The notes under the pieces were generated by a model, which did no database searches, had not been told where the DNA came from, and was given only the letters and a program-made list of their open reading frames with translations. A stretch of DNA of 64,000 bases, taken from the NCBI RefSeq assembly GCF_000146065.2, contig NC_020449.1, positions 1 to 64,000 on the forward strand. Reading direction: 5' to 3'. The position numbers and the translations under genes were made by a program. This stretch comes from Candidatus Cloacimonas acidaminovorans str. Evry (GTDB lineage Bacteria > Cloacimonadota > Cloacimonadia > Cloacimonadales > Cloacimonadaceae). Shown in pieces: positions 14,241 through 33,481 of the stretch. Position 1 is the first letter of the stretch, and each line of letters begins with the position of its first letter.

Positions 14241-14379
14241 TAGATTATTTAATTTTTTTATCCATAAACCATAAATAATGGAATATATTCCGTAGGACTG
14301 GTAGAAAAATAACAACAGGTTTTGAACCTGGCACAGAGATTTTCAATATCATTTCTGTAATGAAAAGTCCTTTATCTTT

Positions 14380-14611
14380 CCTACGAAAGCAGAAATCCCG
14401 ATACTTGTCATTCCTACGAAAGCAGAAATCCCGATACTTGTCATTCCTACGAAGGCAGAAATCCCGATACTTGTCATTCCTACGAAGGCAGAAATCCCGA
14501 TACTTGTCATTCCTACGAAGGAAGGAATACCGATACTTGTCATTCCTGAGAAGGTAGGAATCACGATACTTGTCCCTGATACTTGTCATTCTTGTGAAAG
14601 CAGAAATCCAT
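14380..14611. repeat. 33-bp tandem repeat array
   Basis: Six units begin at 14380, 14413, 14446, 14479, 14512 and 14545, exactly 33 bp apart, followed by a shorter decayed copy ending near 14611. Each unit begins CCTACGAAAGCAGAAATCCC and ends GATACTTGTCATT. The core resembles the dispersed CCTGCGAAAGCAGG palindrome seen at 21090 and 46460. There are no unique spacers, so this is not a CRISPR. Later units drift (GGAAGGAATACC, GAGAAGGTAGGAATC). Confidence 0.9.
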
Positions 14612-14812
14612 ACTATTAAATACATTAAAACAGATTCTGCATCAAGTGCGGAATGACAAACTAATTAAGCTCAACCATTTTTCTCATTCAAATAAATGAT
14701 TTCAACCGGACATTATGGAGAATAAAGGAAGAATTAAACTCTGGAATAAAAGATAAAATTCCTTTTTTTGATTGAAAATGTGAACCTTTACAATACTCTT
14801 ATAAAAAAATAC

Positions 14813-25195: not shown

Positions 25196-28123
25196 ATGAG
25201 ATTATTCAGAAGTCGCCTAATCTTTCTCTTGCTGTTTCTGCTCCTATTGTTAAGCACAGTGATAATTGCACAGAAGCAGTCAGACGCAGAAAGATATGTA
25301 GTAGAGGATTTCAAAGTAGAAGATATTCCTGCAGATGATGGAACTGGATTAATGCTTTCGTGGAAGCCCTTGGAGCGGGACAAAAGAATTATTGAATACC
25401 GCATTTACAGGGGAGTAAGTCCTGATACCCTTTTCTTTTTAGATGCCATTCCGGTTAATGTAAAAACAGGTGTTGCTTCTGAGAGGATGTTCTATTATGA
25501 TAATTCTGGCAGTGAATTTTTTGATATTTCTTCGCCTCGCAAGTTAAAGAAAGAAAAGCAGCAGGGTAAAAATAGTCCCTTATATCAAAAAATGCCTCGT
25601 AACATTCCTTTTTTAGCAGAAATATCCGGTAAATTTTCTCTGCTTTCCATTAGCGAAAAGAACAAATACTATTACAGCAGTCAGAAAGTTACATTGGATA
25701 AACCCCAAGAACAAGGTTCGGAAAAGGAAAAACAGGAAGAGGGAGAAACCTATGCGGGATTGAAAGACAATCAACAGACAGTGTATTGTTTCTTAAATCC
25801 CGGAGAGAAATACTATTATACCATTGTAGCGGTGAATGAAAGAAGGCAGTTTCAAAAGCATGCTAAAATTACAGCAGGTAGCCCTGAACCTAATGCTCCA
25901 GAACCAGCAACAGCATTACACAGTGTGGTTTTAGAAGATAGCAGGGAATTACGGTTTGAATGGGAACTTCCATTATACAATTCGGACATAGCTCAATATC
26001 GTATTCATCAAACACCTCTTTTTACGCCTACGGATTGGGATTCGCTTCGCTTACATCCTGAACTGTTTCAGCCCAAAACAGTAGTTCTGCAAAGCGGTTT
26101 CGCAGGTTACGGTTCCGGGAAAAATTATTGCCAGGTTTCTATTCCTGAAGAGGCGTCTCTGGAGGCATATATTAATTCAGCTTATACTTTGGAATTAATA
26201 GATGCGGATGGTTTCAGCAGTTTTTCTGCTCTTTCCAAACCCAGGATAAAGCATAGTAAAGACCTTCCTGCCAAACCGATAATAAAAATGGAAGATAAGC
26301 CCAATGACAAAGGTGACCGCTTAACTGTTGTTTGGGAACATCCTATTTGTTTTGTAGTTAAGACCACAGCTCTGAACAATAAGTTTAATAAGTTTCGGGT
26401 AAATTATCAGCTGAATAAAACCGAAACCCAGCAAGTGGATAACATCTATTTTGAGTTCTATAAGAAGGGTGAGGAAAAGCCCTTTGCCAAAATTAACGAG
26501 TTTTATCAGGATAACAGTGTTATCTTAAAAGTTCCCAATAATTACGATTACAAAAAGGGATTTCGGGTAAAAATCACTTTGGCAGGTAAGCCAGAAATAC
26601 CTCAGGACTATTGTATAGAGCAGGATTTGGAATATGATCCCAGTATGCTGGCTATTTTACCTACCAAGGCACTTTATCGTAATGGTAAAGATGTATCTAA
26701 AATCAGCAATGTAGTTTACCGCAAAAATATGGCTTCCAAGCAGTTAACTTTGGTTAAGCGCAATACCTCTTATGATAATTCTTTAGATGTTACAATTCCT
26801 TATGCTACTATTATTCAAAAGCCGGTTAACGGTTTTACTTTTGCCCAGGGTGATACTTTGATAACCTATATCAATGGAGAGAAGCAAGCGCGTAAATTAA
26901 AGCCGGGAGATATAAAAACACCTTTAGCTTTAATTTCGCCCAATATTGATTTGGTTTATGACAAAGAAAATGAAACGCGCATTGAGACCAATATTTTCCC
27001 CGATTTAGGCAGAAAAGAAGCACAGGAAAAGGTGGAGGAGCTAACTAAAAAAATTGCAGAGCTAAAAGACAAGATAACCGGTGAGACCGATCCTGCTGTA
27101 GCTGAACAGTTAAATCAAAATATAGAGCAATTGCAAAAGCAGTTAAATGCTTATGCTAAGAATGAAAATCTGATTAACGCTAATAAAATTCCCAACCGGA
27201 AAAGCAGAATACGTTATATTGCTAAAGTACGAGAGGACTATTCCCGATACAGCACTTATCAGGTTGTTCGTACTAATAGCAGAGGGCTTTTTACGGAAAG
27301 TGACCTGTTAAAAGACGGAGATGATATATTCTATATGAAGCCCGTTTCCAATGTTTTTGATACCAATAAATATACTACCCTTGTGGCAATGCTTATTTTC
27401 GGCTTAATGGTAGTTATTTTTATCAATTTAGCCAAGCGTGGTAAGGACTTGTATATAAGGCCAATTGCCGGTTTGGAAGAAATTGATACAGCAGTTGGTA
27501 GAGCAACGGAAATGGGACGTCCGATTATGTATATGATGGGATATGGTTCTTTAGGAGATGTAGCTACTATTGCCTCTATGGGAATTTTAAGTTTGGTAGC
27601 TAAGAAAGCTGCAGAATATGATATTAAACTTATTGTGCCCGTTTATAATTATATCGTTATGCCGGTAGTTCAGGAAATTGTTAGAGATGCACATTATTCC
27701 GTAGGTCGTCCGGATAGTTATGATAAAAACAGTGTATTCTTTTTAACTGATGTCCAGTTTGCTTATGTAGCTGGTGTAAATGGAATTATGATTCGGGAAA
27801 GAGCTGCAACTAATTTCTATATGGGTTATTTTGCTGCAGAGGCATTATTGATGACTGAAACGGGTAATGGTATTGGAGCTTATCAAATAGCCGGAACCGA
27901 TGCCATCACGCAGATTCCCTTTTTTATAACAACCTGTGACTATACTTTAATTGGAGAAGAGCTTTATGCTGCTTCTTCCTATTTGAACCGTGAACCAATG
28001 CAACTGGGAACTTTGAAAGCGCAGGACTATTACAAATTCCTGATTTTTGCCTTTGTAATTGCCGGAGCGGTTCTTTCCACTTTCCAGTTGACTGGTCTTA
28101 GTGAATTATTTCCCCTAAAATAA
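25196..28123 (+). CDS. Large FN3/DUF6754-like membrane protein, paralogue 1
   Basis: 975 aa. Topology by eye: a signal or anchor (about 3-22), a long exported region to 725, a membrane segment (about 726-746), a cytoplasmic alpha/beta domain (about 752-931) and a last membrane segment (about 947-966). The exported part has about three FN3-like modules (LSWKPLERDKRIIEYRIYRG, FEWELPLYNSDIAQYRIHQ, DKPNDKGDRLTVVWE) and a coiled coil at about 600-660. The C-terminal domain, from memory close to Pfam DUF6754, has IRPIAGLEEIDTAVGRATEM, GRPIM, GTDAITQIPFFITTC and LIGEELYAASSYL. A paralogue closes the same operon. AGGAG lies 9 bp before the ATG. Function unknown. Confidence 0.85.
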   Translation: MRLFRSRLIFLLLFLLLLLSTVIIAQKQSDAERYVVEDFKVEDIPADDGTGLMLSWKPLERDKRIIEYRIYRGVSPDTLFFLDAIPVNVKTGVASERMFYYDNSGSEFFDISSPRKLKKEKQQGKNSPLYQKMPRNIPFLAEISGKFSLLSISEKNKYYYSSQKVTLDKPQEQGSEKEKQEEGETYAGLKDNQQTVYCFLNPGEKYYYTIVAVNERRQFQKHAKITAGSPEPNAPEPATALHSVVLEDSRELRFEWELPLYNSDIAQYRIHQTPLFTPTDWDSLRLHPELFQPKTVVLQSGFAGYGSGKNYCQVSIPEEASLEAYINSAYTLELIDADGFSSFSALSKPRIKHSKDLPAKPIIKMEDKPNDKGDRLTVVWEHPICFVVKTTALNNKFNKFRVNYQLNKTETQQVDNIYFEFYKKGEEKPFAKINEFYQDNSVILKVPNNYDYKKGFRVKITLAGKPEIPQDYCIEQDLEYDPSMLAILPTKALYRNGKDVSKISNVVYRKNMASKQLTLVKRNTSYDNSLDVTIPYATIIQKPVNGFTFAQGDTLITYINGEKQARKLKPGDIKTPLALISPNIDLVYDKENETRIETNIFPDLGRKEAQEKVEELTKKIAELKDKITGETDPAVAEQLNQNIEQLQKQLNAYAKNENLINANKIPNRKSRIRYIAKVREDYSRYSTYQVVRTNSRGLFTESDLLKDGDDIFYMKPVSNVFDTNKYTTLVAMLIFGLMVVIFINLAKRGKDLYIRPIAGLEEIDTAVGRATEMGRPIMYMMGYGSLGDVATIASMGILSLVAKKAAEYDIKLIVPVYNYIVMPVVQEIVRDAHYSVGRPDSYDKNSVFFLTDVQFAYVAGVNGIMIRERAATNFYMGYFAAEALLMTETGNGIGAYQIAGTDAITQIPFFITTCDYTLIGEELYAASSYLNREPMQLGTLKAQDYYKFLIFAFVIAGAVLSTFQLTGLSELFPLK

Positions 28124-28135
28124 ATGAGGTTCTAA

Positions 28136-28765
28136 ATGAAAAAGACAATACCTTTAATCATCGTAATCGTGGGGGGCATCATCTTTGTGCTTTATGCCTT
28201 AAGTCCCCATAAGCTTTTACAGGATGACTTTTATAACAAGTTTTATCTTCCTTGGGCTTATGCATCTGCCCCCTGGGCTGCTCTTTTGGGAGTTATCAGT
28301 TTATGTATGATGCACAGTAGTAAAATTAAAAGAAAAGCTCCCAAATGGCAATACAGTTATTTCTTTTTTGCCGGGTTTATTATAACTTCTCTTGCCGGTT
28401 TTATCGGCGGAACTCAAAAAGGTAGTGTTTTGATGTGGATTTTTGAGAATATGCAGATGCCGATGAGTTCCACGATGTTTTCCCTTTTGGCATTTTATAT
28501 GGCTTCAGCTGCTTATAAGGCATTTAGAGCGCGTTCCGTGGAAGCTACCGTTTTGCTTCTTGCCGCAATTGTAGTTATGTTAGCGCAGGTGCCTTTGGGA
28601 GTTAAGATTTATAAGAATCTGCCAATTATATCACAATGGATACTGGATGTTCCTAATCTTGCTTCCAAAAGAGGAATTGCCATTGGAGTTGGACTTGGCG
28701 GTGTAGCAACTTCCCTGAAAATTCTTTTAGGTATTGAGCGTTCCTATTTGGGTGGAACGGATTAA
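28136..28765 (+). CDS. Polytopic membrane protein of the DUF6754 operon
   Basis: 209 aa, not recognised. About six hydrophobic segments (near 5-20, 40-58, 75-92, 108-127, 138-155, 180-200). A positively charged loop KIKRKAPK comes after the second. An amphipathic stretch YKNLPIISQWILDVPNLASK precedes the last helix, and the Gly-rich GIAIGVGLGGVATS is a distinctive patch. It follows paralogue 1 by 12 bp. It is likely a membrane core subunit of a complex with its neighbours (inference from operon structure). Confidence 0.75.
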   Translation: MKKTIPLIIVIVGGIIFVLYALSPHKLLQDDFYNKFYLPWAYASAPWAALLGVISLCMMHSSKIKRKAPKWQYSYFFFAGFIITSLAGFIGGTQKGSVLMWIFENMQMPMSSTMFSLLAFYMASAAYKAFRARSVEATVLLLAAIVVMLAQVPLGVKIYKNLPIISQWILDVPNLASKRGIAIGVGLGGVATSLKILLGIERSYLGGTD

Positions 28766-28783
28766 GCAAGGGGAGGATGAAGA

Positions 28784-29965
28784 ATGAACTTTTTTGAAAG
28801 AATGCAAAGTTTAGACCGGCGGTGGATCTACATTGTAGTAGCGCTGGCAATTATCATCCCTTTAATGATACCCTACAATTCGGATAATGTAACTTCTCCA
28901 CCTACAGAGAACTTGTATCAGATGATTGATTCCTTTGCAGGCAGAGAAGATAGAGCTGTCCTTTTAAGTTTTTTACACGATGCTGCTACGATGCCTGAAC
29001 TTTATCCTATGGAAATAGCTATTATCCGGCATTGTTTTGAAAGAAATGTAAAGGTCTTTGCTCTTACTTTTTTAACTTCAGGAGCTCCTATTATTGATTA
29101 TGCTTTCAATTCGGTAAAAGAAGAATATCCTGATATAAAAAGCGGGGTGGACTATTGCAATTTTGGCTATAAACCTCAGCCAATGGCTGTAGTTTTGGGA
29201 ATGGGAGATAATATTGCCAATGCTGTAAATACTGATGCTGAAGGACGTAAACTGGAAAGCTTGCCGATTATGAAAGGAATAACTAATTACAACGAAATGA
29301 ACCTGGTAGTAGAGTTTTCCGGAAGCAGTCCAGGAGTTTACTGGATATATTATGCCCGACCCAAATTTGGAGTTAATGTTGCTTTGGGAGTTACAGCAGT
29401 TATGGCTGCCGATGAATATCCCTATTTGCAATCGGGTCAATTGATAGGTATGCTGACAGGACTTAAGGGTGCAGCGGAATATGAAAAGCTGGTTGATGTT
29501 TTTGCTGCTTATCGTGATCCGGCAATTGACTATAGTGTTAAAACAGATGCGGAAGGAAACAAGATTCTGCCAGGGCGTCCCTTTGGCAAGGAAGTTCTAA
29601 ATGATGAGAGCACAAAGAAATTGATCAATATTACCACGCAAACGAAGGCGGAATTTACTCCCGAGGAATATACTGCATTTGTAGCCAAATATCCGGAGCA
29701 GAAAGCAATTTTTGACCAATTGAAAGAAGAGCAAAACGGCACAATAATTATTGATGTAACGAAGATAACTCCGGAACTGAGAAATAGGATGGGAGAAAAT
29801 GCTTACCGGGAAATCAATCAACTTACACATAATATCAGTTATAAATTCAAAGTAGCCAGAATTGGAATGAATGCTCAATCGGTTGCCCACATTATGATCA
29901 TCATCTTTATCCTTTTGGGTAATATCGGTTATTTCATTCAGAAAGCCAAAACGGCAGAAAAGTAA
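28784..29965 (+). CDS. Membrane-anchored alpha/beta protein of the DUF6754 operon
   Basis: 393 aa, not recognised. One N-terminal membrane segment (about 14-30, preceded by Arg-Arg) and one near the C-terminus (about 367-385, followed by Lys) put the 330-residue middle domain outside by the positive-inside rule. The middle has an alternating strand-helix order: RAVLLSF, then MEIAIIRHCFERN, VKVFALTFLTSG and later SGQLIGMLTGLKGAAEYE. This order runs parallel to the DUF6754-like domain of the large paralogues. GGAGGATGAAGA supplies a good ribosome site. Gaps are 18 bp upstream and 16 bp downstream. Confidence 0.75.
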   Translation: MNFFERMQSLDRRWIYIVVALAIIIPLMIPYNSDNVTSPPTENLYQMIDSFAGREDRAVLLSFLHDAATMPELYPMEIAIIRHCFERNVKVFALTFLTSGAPIIDYAFNSVKEEYPDIKSGVDYCNFGYKPQPMAVVLGMGDNIANAVNTDAEGRKLESLPIMKGITNYNEMNLVVEFSGSSPGVYWIYYARPKFGVNVALGVTAVMAADEYPYLQSGQLIGMLTGLKGAAEYEKLVDVFAAYRDPAIDYSVKTDAEGNKILPGRPFGKEVLNDESTKKLINITTQTKAEFTPEEYTAFVAKYPEQKAIFDQLKEEQNGTIIIDVTKITPELRNRMGENAYREINQLTHNISYKFKVARIGMNAQSVAHIMIIIFILLGNIGYFIQKAKTAEK

Positions 29966-29981
29966 GAAAGGGAGGATAACA

Positions 29982-30584
29982 ATGAGTTTTGAATTATTTA
30001 GTAATCTCGTAGCAGCATTTTTAACCCTGTGTATTTTCTCCTTCCTTTATAAGGAAAATCCCTTTTATAGAATGGCGGAACAACTTCTGGTGGGAGTTTC
30101 CCTGGGTTATACTTTAGTGTTTACTTATGAACGGATATTTATTCCGTATGTGTGGCAGCCGATTATTCTAAAACATAATTTTGTCCTTATTTTACCCTGC
30201 CTGATGGGAATACTTTATCTGTTCCGTTTTTCGCGCAAACTGGGTTGGCTTTCCCGTTATCCTATTGCCTTTTCTATGATTGGAATCGGTTTTGGTGTTC
30301 CGATGGGAATTCATGCCGGAATTTTAGTGCAGATGCGTCAGGCGATGGTTCCCCTGGAAAATATCAATCTCATTCTTATTCTTTTAGGCACAATTGCCGT
30401 TCTGTTATATTTCTTTTTCTCCAAGGCGCATACTGGTGCTTACGGAAAATTTGTCGGGTTGGGAAAATGGTATATGATGATTGGTTTTGGTGCCTCTTTT
30501 GGTTTAACGGTTATGGCGCGTATTTCCTTGCTGATTGGAAGAATTCAATTCCTCGTTATAGATGTTTTTGGATTGATGAAATAG
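29982..30584 (+). CDS. Second polytopic membrane protein of the DUF6754 operon
   Basis: 200 aa, not recognised. Several hydrophobic segments (about 5-22, 35-52, 65-80, 92-112, 125-143, 160-190). A conserved-looking cytoplasmic KENPFYRMAEQ follows the first, and a basic FRFSRKLGWLSR follows the third. GGGAGG precedes the ATG. The organisation (small polytopic protein 16 bp after the anchored one) suggests a stoichiometric subunit. The 107-bp gap that follows is the only sizeable one in the operon. Confidence 0.75.
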   Translation: MSFELFSNLVAAFLTLCIFSFLYKENPFYRMAEQLLVGVSLGYTLVFTYERIFIPYVWQPIILKHNFVLILPCLMGILYLFRFSRKLGWLSRYPIAFSMIGIGFGVPMGIHAGILVQMRQAMVPLENINLILILLGTIAVLLYFFFSKAHTGAYGKFVGLGKWYMMIGFGASFGLTVMARISLLIGRIQFLVIDVFGLMK

Positions 30585-30602
30585 CTCAATTTAGGAACCT
30601 TT

Positions 30603-30674
30603 AAGTTCCCTTTTAACATAACAGTTGTATAGATTTATGTTACAGACATTGAAGGAAGAGAATCAAGGGAACTT
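30603..30674 (+). promoter_or_regulatory. Nested inverted repeat upstream of paralogue 2
   Basis: Perfect 10-bp arms AAGTTCCCTT (30603-30612) and AAGGGAACTT (30665-30674) enclose perfect 8-bp arms TAACATAA (30614-30621) and TTATGTTA (30635-30642) around a 13-nt loop. The RNA could fold into a long hairpin with a 22-nt bulge on the 3' side. It lies in the only large gap of the operon, just before the paralogue 2 start. It may be an RNA control element, mRNA stability element or protein-binding site. Confidence 0.55.
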
Positions 30675-30691
30675 TGGTTAAGGGATAAAGA

Positions 30692-33481
30692 ATGAAAAAA
30701 TATCTTATTGTAATCGGAATTATTCTGTTGATAGGGATTTCATTGCTTTCCACGGATGATGCAAAACCTGCTTCCCTGAAAGGTAAAATAACAGAATTTT
30801 CTGCTTCCGATATGCCTTTTGACGATGGTAGCGGAATTGTATTGAAATGGAAACCTCTGGATAAATCGTATCGGATTATTAAATATAATATCTATAGAGG
30901 GGTTAGACCTGATTCGTTATTTTTTATCAGCAGTATAGAAGTTGATCCCAAATTAGGTGTTTTAGCGCCGGAATTATATTTCTACGATAAGGGAGAAGAA
31001 CCCTTTATTGAATTTGAAACGGCTCCCCAAAAGCTGAAAAAGGAAAAACAGCAAAGCCATAATAGTCCGCTTTTCAAAAAGTTTCCCCGGCAACCGGAAT
31101 TGCTTGCTACAATGCTGACCAGATACAATATTATAGGAGCCATCAATAATTCCAAGCTTTATCATAGTTCCAAACCGGTAACAAAAGATGAAGATATTAT
31201 GGCGGGCTTGAAATTAAACCGTTTTGAAACCATTTTAGGTTTTCCCAAAGCGGGCCAGGAATATTACTACACAGTTCTGGGAGTGAACGAAAGAGGAAAA
31301 TATTTACCTTATGCGGATATTCAAAAAGTAATTCCTGAAGATAATCCGCCAGAACCATCCGCAAATTTTTCCAGCACTTACATCCAAGATACGGGAGTTT
31401 TCAATTTTGAATGGCTACCACCATCTTCTTCAGAAGATATTGCAATGTGGGAGGGTTGGCTGATTCCTTTAGCGCAAAAACCGAATAATGGTGAGTTACT
31501 TTCTGAAAATTGGCAAAATAGCGCTATTCCCCTTTTCCAGATTCCCAATTATTCCGGAGCTGTAAATACCTGTTATAGTGTAGATACCAAAGAAGAAGGG
31601 ATAGATTTACCTGCCAATTTGGCTGATTATTATCCCGTGCTTTCTTACAGCGACTATATGGGTCAAAGTGCAGTCGTTTCAGCTAAAAATTTTCGTATCC
31701 TGAATTCTTCACAACTGCTTAAAATGCCCCAAATTGAGGTTAAAGATAAACCCAACGACAAAGGGGATTATTTATCTGTTTCTATGGGAAAACCCCTGGT
31801 TTTTGTCAGCCAGGCGCTTTATTTGAATAAGGCAAAGACAACTTTACGCATCAACTATGAGGTCTCTAATAACGAATATTACAAGATTAAGGAATTGAAA
31901 TTTACCGTTCTTGATTCCTTAAATAAAGAAATTGGCAAGGTCTCCGAACACTATCTGGATAAGAAAGTGCAATTCAAACTGCCTAAACAGTATACTGCCA
32001 TTAAAAATATGAAAATTCGGATTGCTGTTCATACTAATGGCAACGGTAGCTTTGAGGATTATACAGAACAACATATTGTTTATGATCAAAAGAATAAGAT
32101 CTTTCGTGGCGAGAATATCTATTATCAGAATGAACCGGTGAACAAGCTCTATTATGAAATTCTTACCCGCAATGGTTTTGATCCTGATTTTTTGTTTGGA
32201 GAGAGGACTAATGGCTTAACCCGGGCTTACGACCATTCCATTCCCTACGAAAGTATTGTGTATAAAAGCATTCTGGATTATGATAACAAGGGTAAGCGTC
32301 TGATTTTAGACCCGCAAATAACAATAGCTGTTGATCAGGTAAACGGATATACTTTTGCTGTTCCCTTATTCCGTAATAAATTTGAACAAGACCTGAAAAA
32401 ACAAAAAGAGGAACTGGATAATTTATTGGCGGAAAAAAACAAATATCCTGCTAATGCTATTCCCGATTCTTTATTGGCGGCAATTCAGGAAGCGGAAGGA
32501 AATTATAACTTTATAACGAAGCATCCTGCTTATCTGCAAGCTCAAAAGACAAAGACCAATAAGGAATGGCTGAAGACCTTATTAGCTACGCATAATAAAA
32601 ATATGCGCAGTTATTCCTACAAGGTTATTAAAACAGATGGAAAAGCCAATTTTGCAACTACTGCCATTTATGCCGATGCTAAAGGGAATACCGCATTTTA
32701 TCCGCGGAGCGATTGGTTTGATACTACCAAATATATAACTCTTGCTGCTTCTATTTTATTGTGTTTATTCCTTATTTATGCCATCATCCAAAGTCGGAAA
32801 GGAAATGCTTATATCAGACCCATTGCCGGTTTGGAATCTATTGAAGAAGCAGTTGGCAGAGCTACAGAAATGGGTCGTCCTATAATGTTTGTTCCCGGTT
32901 GGGGAACTTTAGGTGATCCTGATACGGTTGCTTCAATGCTGATTTTAGGGCAGGTAGCAAAAAAAGCCGCCGAATTTGATGTCCGTTTAATTTCACCTCA
33001 TTGTGACTATATGGTTTTGCCTTTAGCTCAGGAAATTATTCAAAATGCGTATAATGAAGTTGGACGTCCGGATGCCTTTAATTCCAATGATATTTTCTTC
33101 ATTTCTTATGATCAGTTTCCTTACTGTGCAGGAATCAATGGAATAACGGTGAGGGAAAGAGTTGCCACCATTTTTTATATGGGATATTTTAATGCCGAAG
33201 CACTGCTGTTAACGGAAACAGGAAACCAAACAGGCGCTTTTCAGATTGCCGGAACCGATGCTATAACCCAAGTGCCGTTCTTTATTACTACCTGTTCTTA
33301 CACCTTGATTGGAGAAGAATTTTATGCTGCTTCTGCCTATATTTCCCGCAATCCGGACTTGGTTAGTATGTTGAAGGCATCGGATTATTTTAAAGCTACA
33401 ATTATAATTGTATTGTTGATTGGCACTTTGCTGGCAACCCTGAATTTTACCGGTTTCATCAATGCCTTTCCGATTGAGTAA
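30692..33481 (+). CDS. Large FN3/DUF6754-like membrane protein, paralogue 2
   Basis: 929 aa, colinear with paralogue 1: signal segment, FN3-like modules (LKWKPLDKSYRIIKYNIYRG, FNFEWLPPSSSEDIAMW, DKPNDKGDYLSVSM), a helical charged stretch (about 560-650), a membrane segment near 680-700, an alpha/beta C-terminal domain (about 705-884) and a last membrane segment near 902-922. Shared blocks include KLKKEKQQ, IRPIAGLE, AVGRATEMGRPIM, PFFITTC and YTLIGEE. The exported parts have diverged more than the C-terminal domain, which suggests a common cytoplasmic job and different outside partners. Function unknown. Confidence 0.85.
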   Translation: MKKYLIVIGIILLIGISLLSTDDAKPASLKGKITEFSASDMPFDDGSGIVLKWKPLDKSYRIIKYNIYRGVRPDSLFFISSIEVDPKLGVLAPELYFYDKGEEPFIEFETAPQKLKKEKQQSHNSPLFKKFPRQPELLATMLTRYNIIGAINNSKLYHSSKPVTKDEDIMAGLKLNRFETILGFPKAGQEYYYTVLGVNERGKYLPYADIQKVIPEDNPPEPSANFSSTYIQDTGVFNFEWLPPSSSEDIAMWEGWLIPLAQKPNNGELLSENWQNSAIPLFQIPNYSGAVNTCYSVDTKEEGIDLPANLADYYPVLSYSDYMGQSAVVSAKNFRILNSSQLLKMPQIEVKDKPNDKGDYLSVSMGKPLVFVSQALYLNKAKTTLRINYEVSNNEYYKIKELKFTVLDSLNKEIGKVSEHYLDKKVQFKLPKQYTAIKNMKIRIAVHTNGNGSFEDYTEQHIVYDQKNKIFRGENIYYQNEPVNKLYYEILTRNGFDPDFLFGERTNGLTRAYDHSIPYESIVYKSILDYDNKGKRLILDPQITIAVDQVNGYTFAVPLFRNKFEQDLKKQKEELDNLLAEKNKYPANAIPDSLLAAIQEAEGNYNFITKHPAYLQAQKTKTNKEWLKTLLATHNKNMRSYSYKVIKTDGKANFATTAIYADAKGNTAFYPRSDWFDTTKYITLAASILLCLFLIYAIIQSRKGNAYIRPIAGLESIEEAVGRATEMGRPIMFVPGWGTLGDPDTVASMLILGQVAKKAAEFDVRLISPHCDYMVLPLAQEIIQNAYNEVGRPDAFNSNDIFFISYDQFPYCAGINGITVRERVATIFYMGYFNAEALLLTETGNQTGAFQIAGTDAITQVPFFITTCSYTLIGEEFYAASAYISRNPDLVSMLKASDYFKATIIIVLLIGTLLATLNFTGFINAFPIE

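Follow-up and report, generated by a model that had tools for sequence, protein, structure and literature searches.

A conserved four-gene membrane module of Candidatus Cloacimonas acidaminovorans, genetically coupled to a MutL-like ATPase homologue, as a possible part of an ATP-driven envelope machine

Four membrane proteins, a DUF6754 protein (D), two polytopic proteins (M1 and M2) and an anchored alpha/beta protein (A), are encoded as a conserved unit, D-M1-A-M2, and this unit is genetically coupled to a pair of genes, E and K, of which E encodes a homologue of the MutL/GlmL ATPases. One copy of the unit lies in the window, by which we mean the 64,000 nucleotide stretch that was analysed. 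The explanation that we favour, and hold tentatively, is an ATP-driven envelope machine with exchangeable D-M1-A-M2 modules served by E-K. The features of the window are as follows.

25196..28123, plus strand: D1, 975 aa; signal peptide, FN3-like ectodomain, coiled coil, TM segment, cytoplasmic DUF6754 domain and TM segment
25274..27340, plus strand: D1 extracytoplasmic region; FN3-like modules, coiled coil at about 27002-27190
27347..28108, plus strand: D1 DUF6754 (PF20539) domain; Rossmann-like, with a TM helix on each side (AlphaFold pLDDT 89.7)
28136..28765, plus strand: M1, 209 aa; polytopic, about 6 TM, without Pfam family
28784..29965, plus strand: A, 393 aa; N-terminal TM, predicted extracytoplasmic Rossmann-like domain and C-terminal TM, without Pfam family
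29982..30584, plus strand: M2, 200 aa; polytopic, about 6 TM, without Pfam family
30692..33481, plus strand: D2, 929 aa; paralogue of D1 and lineage-specific duplicate
32705..33466, plus strand: D2 DUF6754 domain (Pfam match)

The five genes form one run, and their coordinates, the lengths of the products and the gaps between the genes (12, 18, 16 and 107 bp) agree exactly with an earlier note on this DNA where it gives them. There are GGAGG-like ribosome sites at the M1 and M2-side starts. The 107 bp gap between M2 and D2 contains an inverted repeat, AAGTTCCCTT ... AAGGGAACTT (window 30600-30675). Elsewhere in the window, a minus-strand ORF (14245-14625) encodes near-identical RRNDKYRDFC repeats and is probably a translated DNA repeat array.

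Both large proteins had been proposed to carry DUF6754, and Pfam places the domain at residues 718-971 of D1 (1.5e-116) and 672-925 of D2 (1.9e-112). There is a third, short D in the genome, and all three copies are members of the family at E<1e-110, with whole-domain scores of 388, 375 and 413 bits against a gathering score of 27. The cytoplasmic domain of D2 retains the conserved motifs of the family. It had also been noted that the exported parts diverge more than the cytoplasmic domain, and this is the case: D1 and D2 are 29.9% identical over D1 residues 25-700 and 57.7% identical over residues 731-970, and the best-kept exported stretch is the first ~215 exported residues (41% identity). 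Support for an FN3-like ectodomain is moderate. The fn3 family is matched at E<=0.01 in 11 of 27 long ectodomains (best 1.9e-5), but D1 itself scores 22.8 bits, which is below the Pfam gathering score of 25 bits. Several D relatives (D1 and D2 of loci L131-L135) open with lipobox-like signal peptides, so the N terminus of their ectodomain may be lipid-anchored; there is no lipobox in D1 or D2 of the window.

Hydropathy and the distribution of positive charges predict that the DUF6754 domain is inside. The anchored alpha/beta protein of the earlier note, A, is present, but by the positive-inside rule its alpha/beta domain sits outside the membrane. We dropped the idea that neighbouring genes give the appearance of a complex by read-through, since the predicted topology has D ending outside and M1 starting inside. 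AlphaFold models show a confident Rossmann-like domain both in A (pLDDT 87.3) and in DUF6754, where it lies between the two TM helices. The alpha/beta order is similar in the two domains, and each resembles the molybdenum-cofactor carrier protein (target TM ~0.5), which raised the idea that A and D are remote paralogues, one on either side of the membrane. We do not claim this, as profile comparison gave a probability of only 9.7%, and on a TM helix alone.

The unit is smaller than the five genes first described. The genome is a single contig of 2,246,820 bases, and the third DUF6754 gene, at 1.386 Mb, starts a compact run of D (388 aa), M1 (232 aa), A (276 aa) and M2 (212 aa) with overlapping stop and start codons. 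The unit is therefore D-M1-A-M2, and the copy in the window carries an extra D after M2. Directly upstream of the short D there is a lipoprotein gene (265 aa; L004 6357-7154), which is kept at 11 related Cloacimonadota loci and is a possible extra partner. DUF6754 was found in 122 of 125 Cloacimonadota genomes, most members of the family to which the window belongs having three copies and most other Cloacimonadota two. The order D-M1-A-M2 is present at 19 of 20 long-D loci taken from this phylum and the remaining locus stops at a contig edge. The extra D2 is confined to two families among these loci, the window's and one other, and is a local duplicate. In the D tree the two D2 groups fall in separate clades, each with its own D1 (support 0.90 and 0.93), so that the duplication probably arose twice. 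None of the genes flanking the run in the window is present at the Cloacimonadota long-D loci, and any other neighbour is common to at most six of them. The unit thus ends with the described run.

The same arrangement extends well beyond Cloacimonadota. A scan of GTDB contigs, for which the bait was an approximate sequence checked through its matches (best identity 82%), returned more than 500 relatives. The best 80 of these come from Planctomycetota, Marinimicrobia, Zixibacteria, Acidobacteriota, Gemmatimonadota, Calditrichota, Fermentibacterota, Coatesbacteria, Latescibacterota, Stahlbacteria, Cloacimonadota and one record labelled Deltaproteobacteria, so that a range of about a dozen phyla is a lower bound. 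No DUF6754 was found in viral contigs or plasmids. In HMM maps of the loci, D-M1-A-M2 is the order almost throughout, and the set often stands two or three times in tandem. Where at least 4.5 kb of downstream sequence is available, D is succeeded by M1, A and M2 in 105 of 111 cases; D without the three smaller genes is a rare exception. Pairwise distances of the four subunits correlate (r 0.80-0.89), which is partly due to common ancestry. The profile searches and neighbourhood analysis thus find an almost invariant co-occurrence of the four genes, in Cloacimonadota and in other phyla. What remains of the heteromeric membrane complex of the earlier note is a conserved, co-inherited membrane set of four genes rather than five, from which a complex may be inferred.

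In a tree of the four proteins, the window's set groups with the third of the tandem sets in Zixibacteria and relatives, apart from the short set of its own genome. This suggests that the paralogous modules predate the phyla. Outside Cloacimonadota, D is only 370-530 aa long at most loci; the large FN3-like ectodomains and D2 seem to have been elaborated within Cloacimonadota. At Phycisphaerae loci (including L075, L078 and L083) nadC-birA-like genes stand on one side of the cluster and plsX-fabH-fabD-fabG-like genes on the other, all named by inspection. This placement is a possible hint at lipid metabolism, or merely conserved order.

A second group of genes accompanies the membrane set. In the window's genome it is found far from both D-M1-A-M2 modules.

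684-687.5 kb (L116 8075-11509), minus strand: C3-E-K locus, probable energy module; E (MutL-like) 620 aa, K 376 aa, C3 137 aa

This copy of E was found with the E profile at 1e-296. E belongs to the MutL family: relatives in L043 and L075 match PF13941 at 424-433 bits, above the gathering score and over positions 1-450 of the 450 in the model, and the three nucleotide motifs of the actin fold (DCGSTTTK, DIGGATTD and GSGGVL) are retained. K combines a biotinyl-lipoyl-like part with an end that is KOW-like (weak match to Spt5). The order C4-C3-E-K is found upstream of D in many phyla. K follows E in 39 of 44 cases, the two are fused in Marinimicrobia, and D lies directly downstream of K in 38 of 56 cases. 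In L128, a fused E-K gene is upstream of a long-D module. Many Cloacimonadota (e.g. L145 and L146) have as a second copy a divergent E-K fusion of ~980-1080 aa, which is missing from the window's genome. In a complete Coatesbacteria chromosome (L108), E is apparently split by an inversion beside two inverted D-M1-A-M2 sets.

Presence and absence of these genes follow the membrane module. Among 78 genomes of Planctomycetota, D and M2 are in an identical set of 22, and K is in 19 of these 22 and in none of the other 56 (P ~7e-20 and 2e-15, with kinship among genomes ignored). K is present in all 71 near-complete Cloacimonadota genomes and DUF6754 in 69 of them. In 23 of 26 genomes without K on the D contig, K is located elsewhere, and E is in 26 of 26 tested genomes having M2. 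There are from one to five or six M2 genes per genome against one main E-K (5:1 in G143 and G229, 4:1 in G136). Taken together, the data show that the membrane module is genetically coupled to E-K. Where the set is split (G168, G215, L077 and L087), K and D stay together and M1-A-M2 are far off, which points to D as the likely docking partner of K-E. Averaged over alignment columns, identity is 60-66% in D, E and K against 31-47% in M1, M2 and A, in samples that differ; the higher conservation of the first three is as expected if the inner domain of D touches E-K.

Of the membrane proteins, only D belongs to a named family. M1, A and M2 have no convincing family in Pfam or NCBIfam, the DUF6754 family has no function assigned to it in Pfam, and its fixed partners M1, A, M2 and E-K have no description in the open literature that we could find, in agreement with the earlier view that no function had been assigned. 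A search of the open literature found no paper that deals with DUF6754 or with a MutL cluster of this kind. For D, A, M1, M2 and E, the PDB gave no convincing relative by sequence, and K gave only weak KOW/RNA-polymerase matches. Foldseek against the PDB returned nothing more specific than generic Rossmann matches (for D, best E 5e-4 and query TM 0.33; for A, best E 8e-3). No member matches a component of a known pump, secretion system or respiratory system in Pfam, NCBIfam, PDB-sequence or fold searches. By the searches used, the membrane module thus fits no characterised kind of system, and its mechanism is predicted.

The second D-M1-A-M2 set and the E-K locus shift the likely mechanism from the sensor of the earlier note to an ATPase-linked machine. 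In the explanation that we favour, the window would encode one membrane module, out of two in the genome, of a multi-subunit envelope machine not yet characterised. M1 and M2 would form the membrane core, A would present its Rossmann-like domain outside, and D would have a variable ectodomain outside and the conserved DUF6754 domain in the cytoplasm. C3-E-K would be the cytosolic module, with E as an actin-fold (ASKHA) ATPase homologue of the MutL/GlmL superfamily and K as a barrel-sandwich/KOW adaptor. We infer a physical complex in which E-K would dock on the cytoplasmic face of D and hydrolyse ATP, driving a conformational cycle of D-M1-A-M2 by which a substrate would be moved or assembled across or in the inner membrane, the substrate and the direction being likewise predicted. 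A single E-K pair would be shared among several modules that differ in their outside parts, and duplication of D in this lineage would give modules with two different ectodomains. Such a machine would work like the ECF-type transporters, in which one ATP-binding module is combined with several membrane modules per genome. However, there is no common family, E is of the actin fold and not an ABC protein, there are four membrane subunits here, and transport is hypothetical. Several observations count against the explanation: E-K is unlinked to either module in the window's genome; two near-complete genomes (G050 and G061) have K without a DUF6754 match; neither M1 nor M2 could be linked to a transporter by Pfam, by PDB sequence or by fold; and the relatives of E of the GlmL type serve soluble mutases as accessory proteins and are not known to be motors.

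MutL/GlmL-type proteins are thought to be chaperones or activases for mutases, and E-K could instead be such a pair, serving to activate or repair an enzyme that D, A, M1 and M2 would build in the membrane. The seat of catalysis would then be the highly conserved D domain (GRATE, ESLILAETG and CDYTLIGEE motifs) and/or the outside domain of A. E covers the whole MutL domain (PF13941; GlmL of glutamate mutase, Or-4 of ornithine aminomutase) and keeps its ATP-binding motifs, D has 36 invariant columns with many charged residues in 76 sequences, and both A and D have Rossmann-like folds, all of which agree with such an enzyme. However, E is ~150 residues longer, falls under the Or-4 equivalog cut-off and far under that for GlmL (NCBIfam; 229.5 vs 475 bits), and is fused or adjacent to K and linked to membrane genes rather than to a B12 mutase. 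None of the libraries searched revealed a catalytic signature, and two 6-TM subunits in a fixed four-gene set exceed the needs of a membrane-anchored enzyme. We consider this reading unlikely.

The ectodomains of D1, D2 and A might instead sense ligands or the state of the envelope and signal through M1 and M2 to DUF6754 and E-K. Variable ectodomains over a conserved cytoplasmic domain would suit such a sensory or regulatory complex, as would the probable double origin of D2, and D1 and D2 could possibly present different sensors outside. M1 weakly resembles 7TMR-DISM, but at 15.5 bits (E 0.017) against a gathering score of 29 bits, and this family is absent among those matched by 40 relatives. 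There is no kinase, cyclase, phosphodiesterase, receiver or DNA-binding domain in the unit or in E-K, and four membrane subunits in lock-step across about a dozen phyla would be unusual for a receptor, so a sensory role seems rather improbable to us.

A scaffold that organises the envelope (shape, division or linkage of inner and outer membranes), in which E would be a cytoskeletal partner of the actin fold and long ectodomains of D would bridge the periplasm, is more doubtful still. The superfamily of E is consistent with it, as are the 700-aa ectodomains with a coiled coil and the lipobox-like N termini of some D relatives; D1 and D2 of the window lack that lipobox, however, the outside part of D in other phyla is mostly too short for spanning the periplasm, and no connection with genes for division or shape was observed. 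Finally, a redox or ion-translocating complex analogous to Rnf/NQR is very improbable, as the likeness is anatomical only (a barrel-sandwich subunit in K, two ~200-aa 6-TM subunits and an anchored outside subunit) and there is no common sequence family and no Pfam or NCBIfam match to Rnf/NQR, flavin, haem or Fe-S families in the set or E-K, and none of the conserved columns of M1 or M2 is an invariant cysteine.

Near-universal presence in Cloacimonadota and strict co-inheritance elsewhere, where the set is patchy, suggest that these genes do something important, and the clean pattern of presence and absence and the small number of genes make this directly testable. Slightly more tentatively than for the favoured explanation itself, we suggest that they may represent an undescribed class of ATP-driven envelope machine, in which an actin-fold MutL-like ATPase and a barrel-sandwich adaptor would power interchangeable four-subunit modules in about a dozen phyla, with large FN3-like ectodomains and a second DUF6754 subunit added in Cloacimonadota. 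Three of the four membrane proteins have no Pfam family. If the ATPase link is true, this would be a new type of energised membrane system, and ATPases of the MutL/GlmL type would be used outside B12 enzymes.
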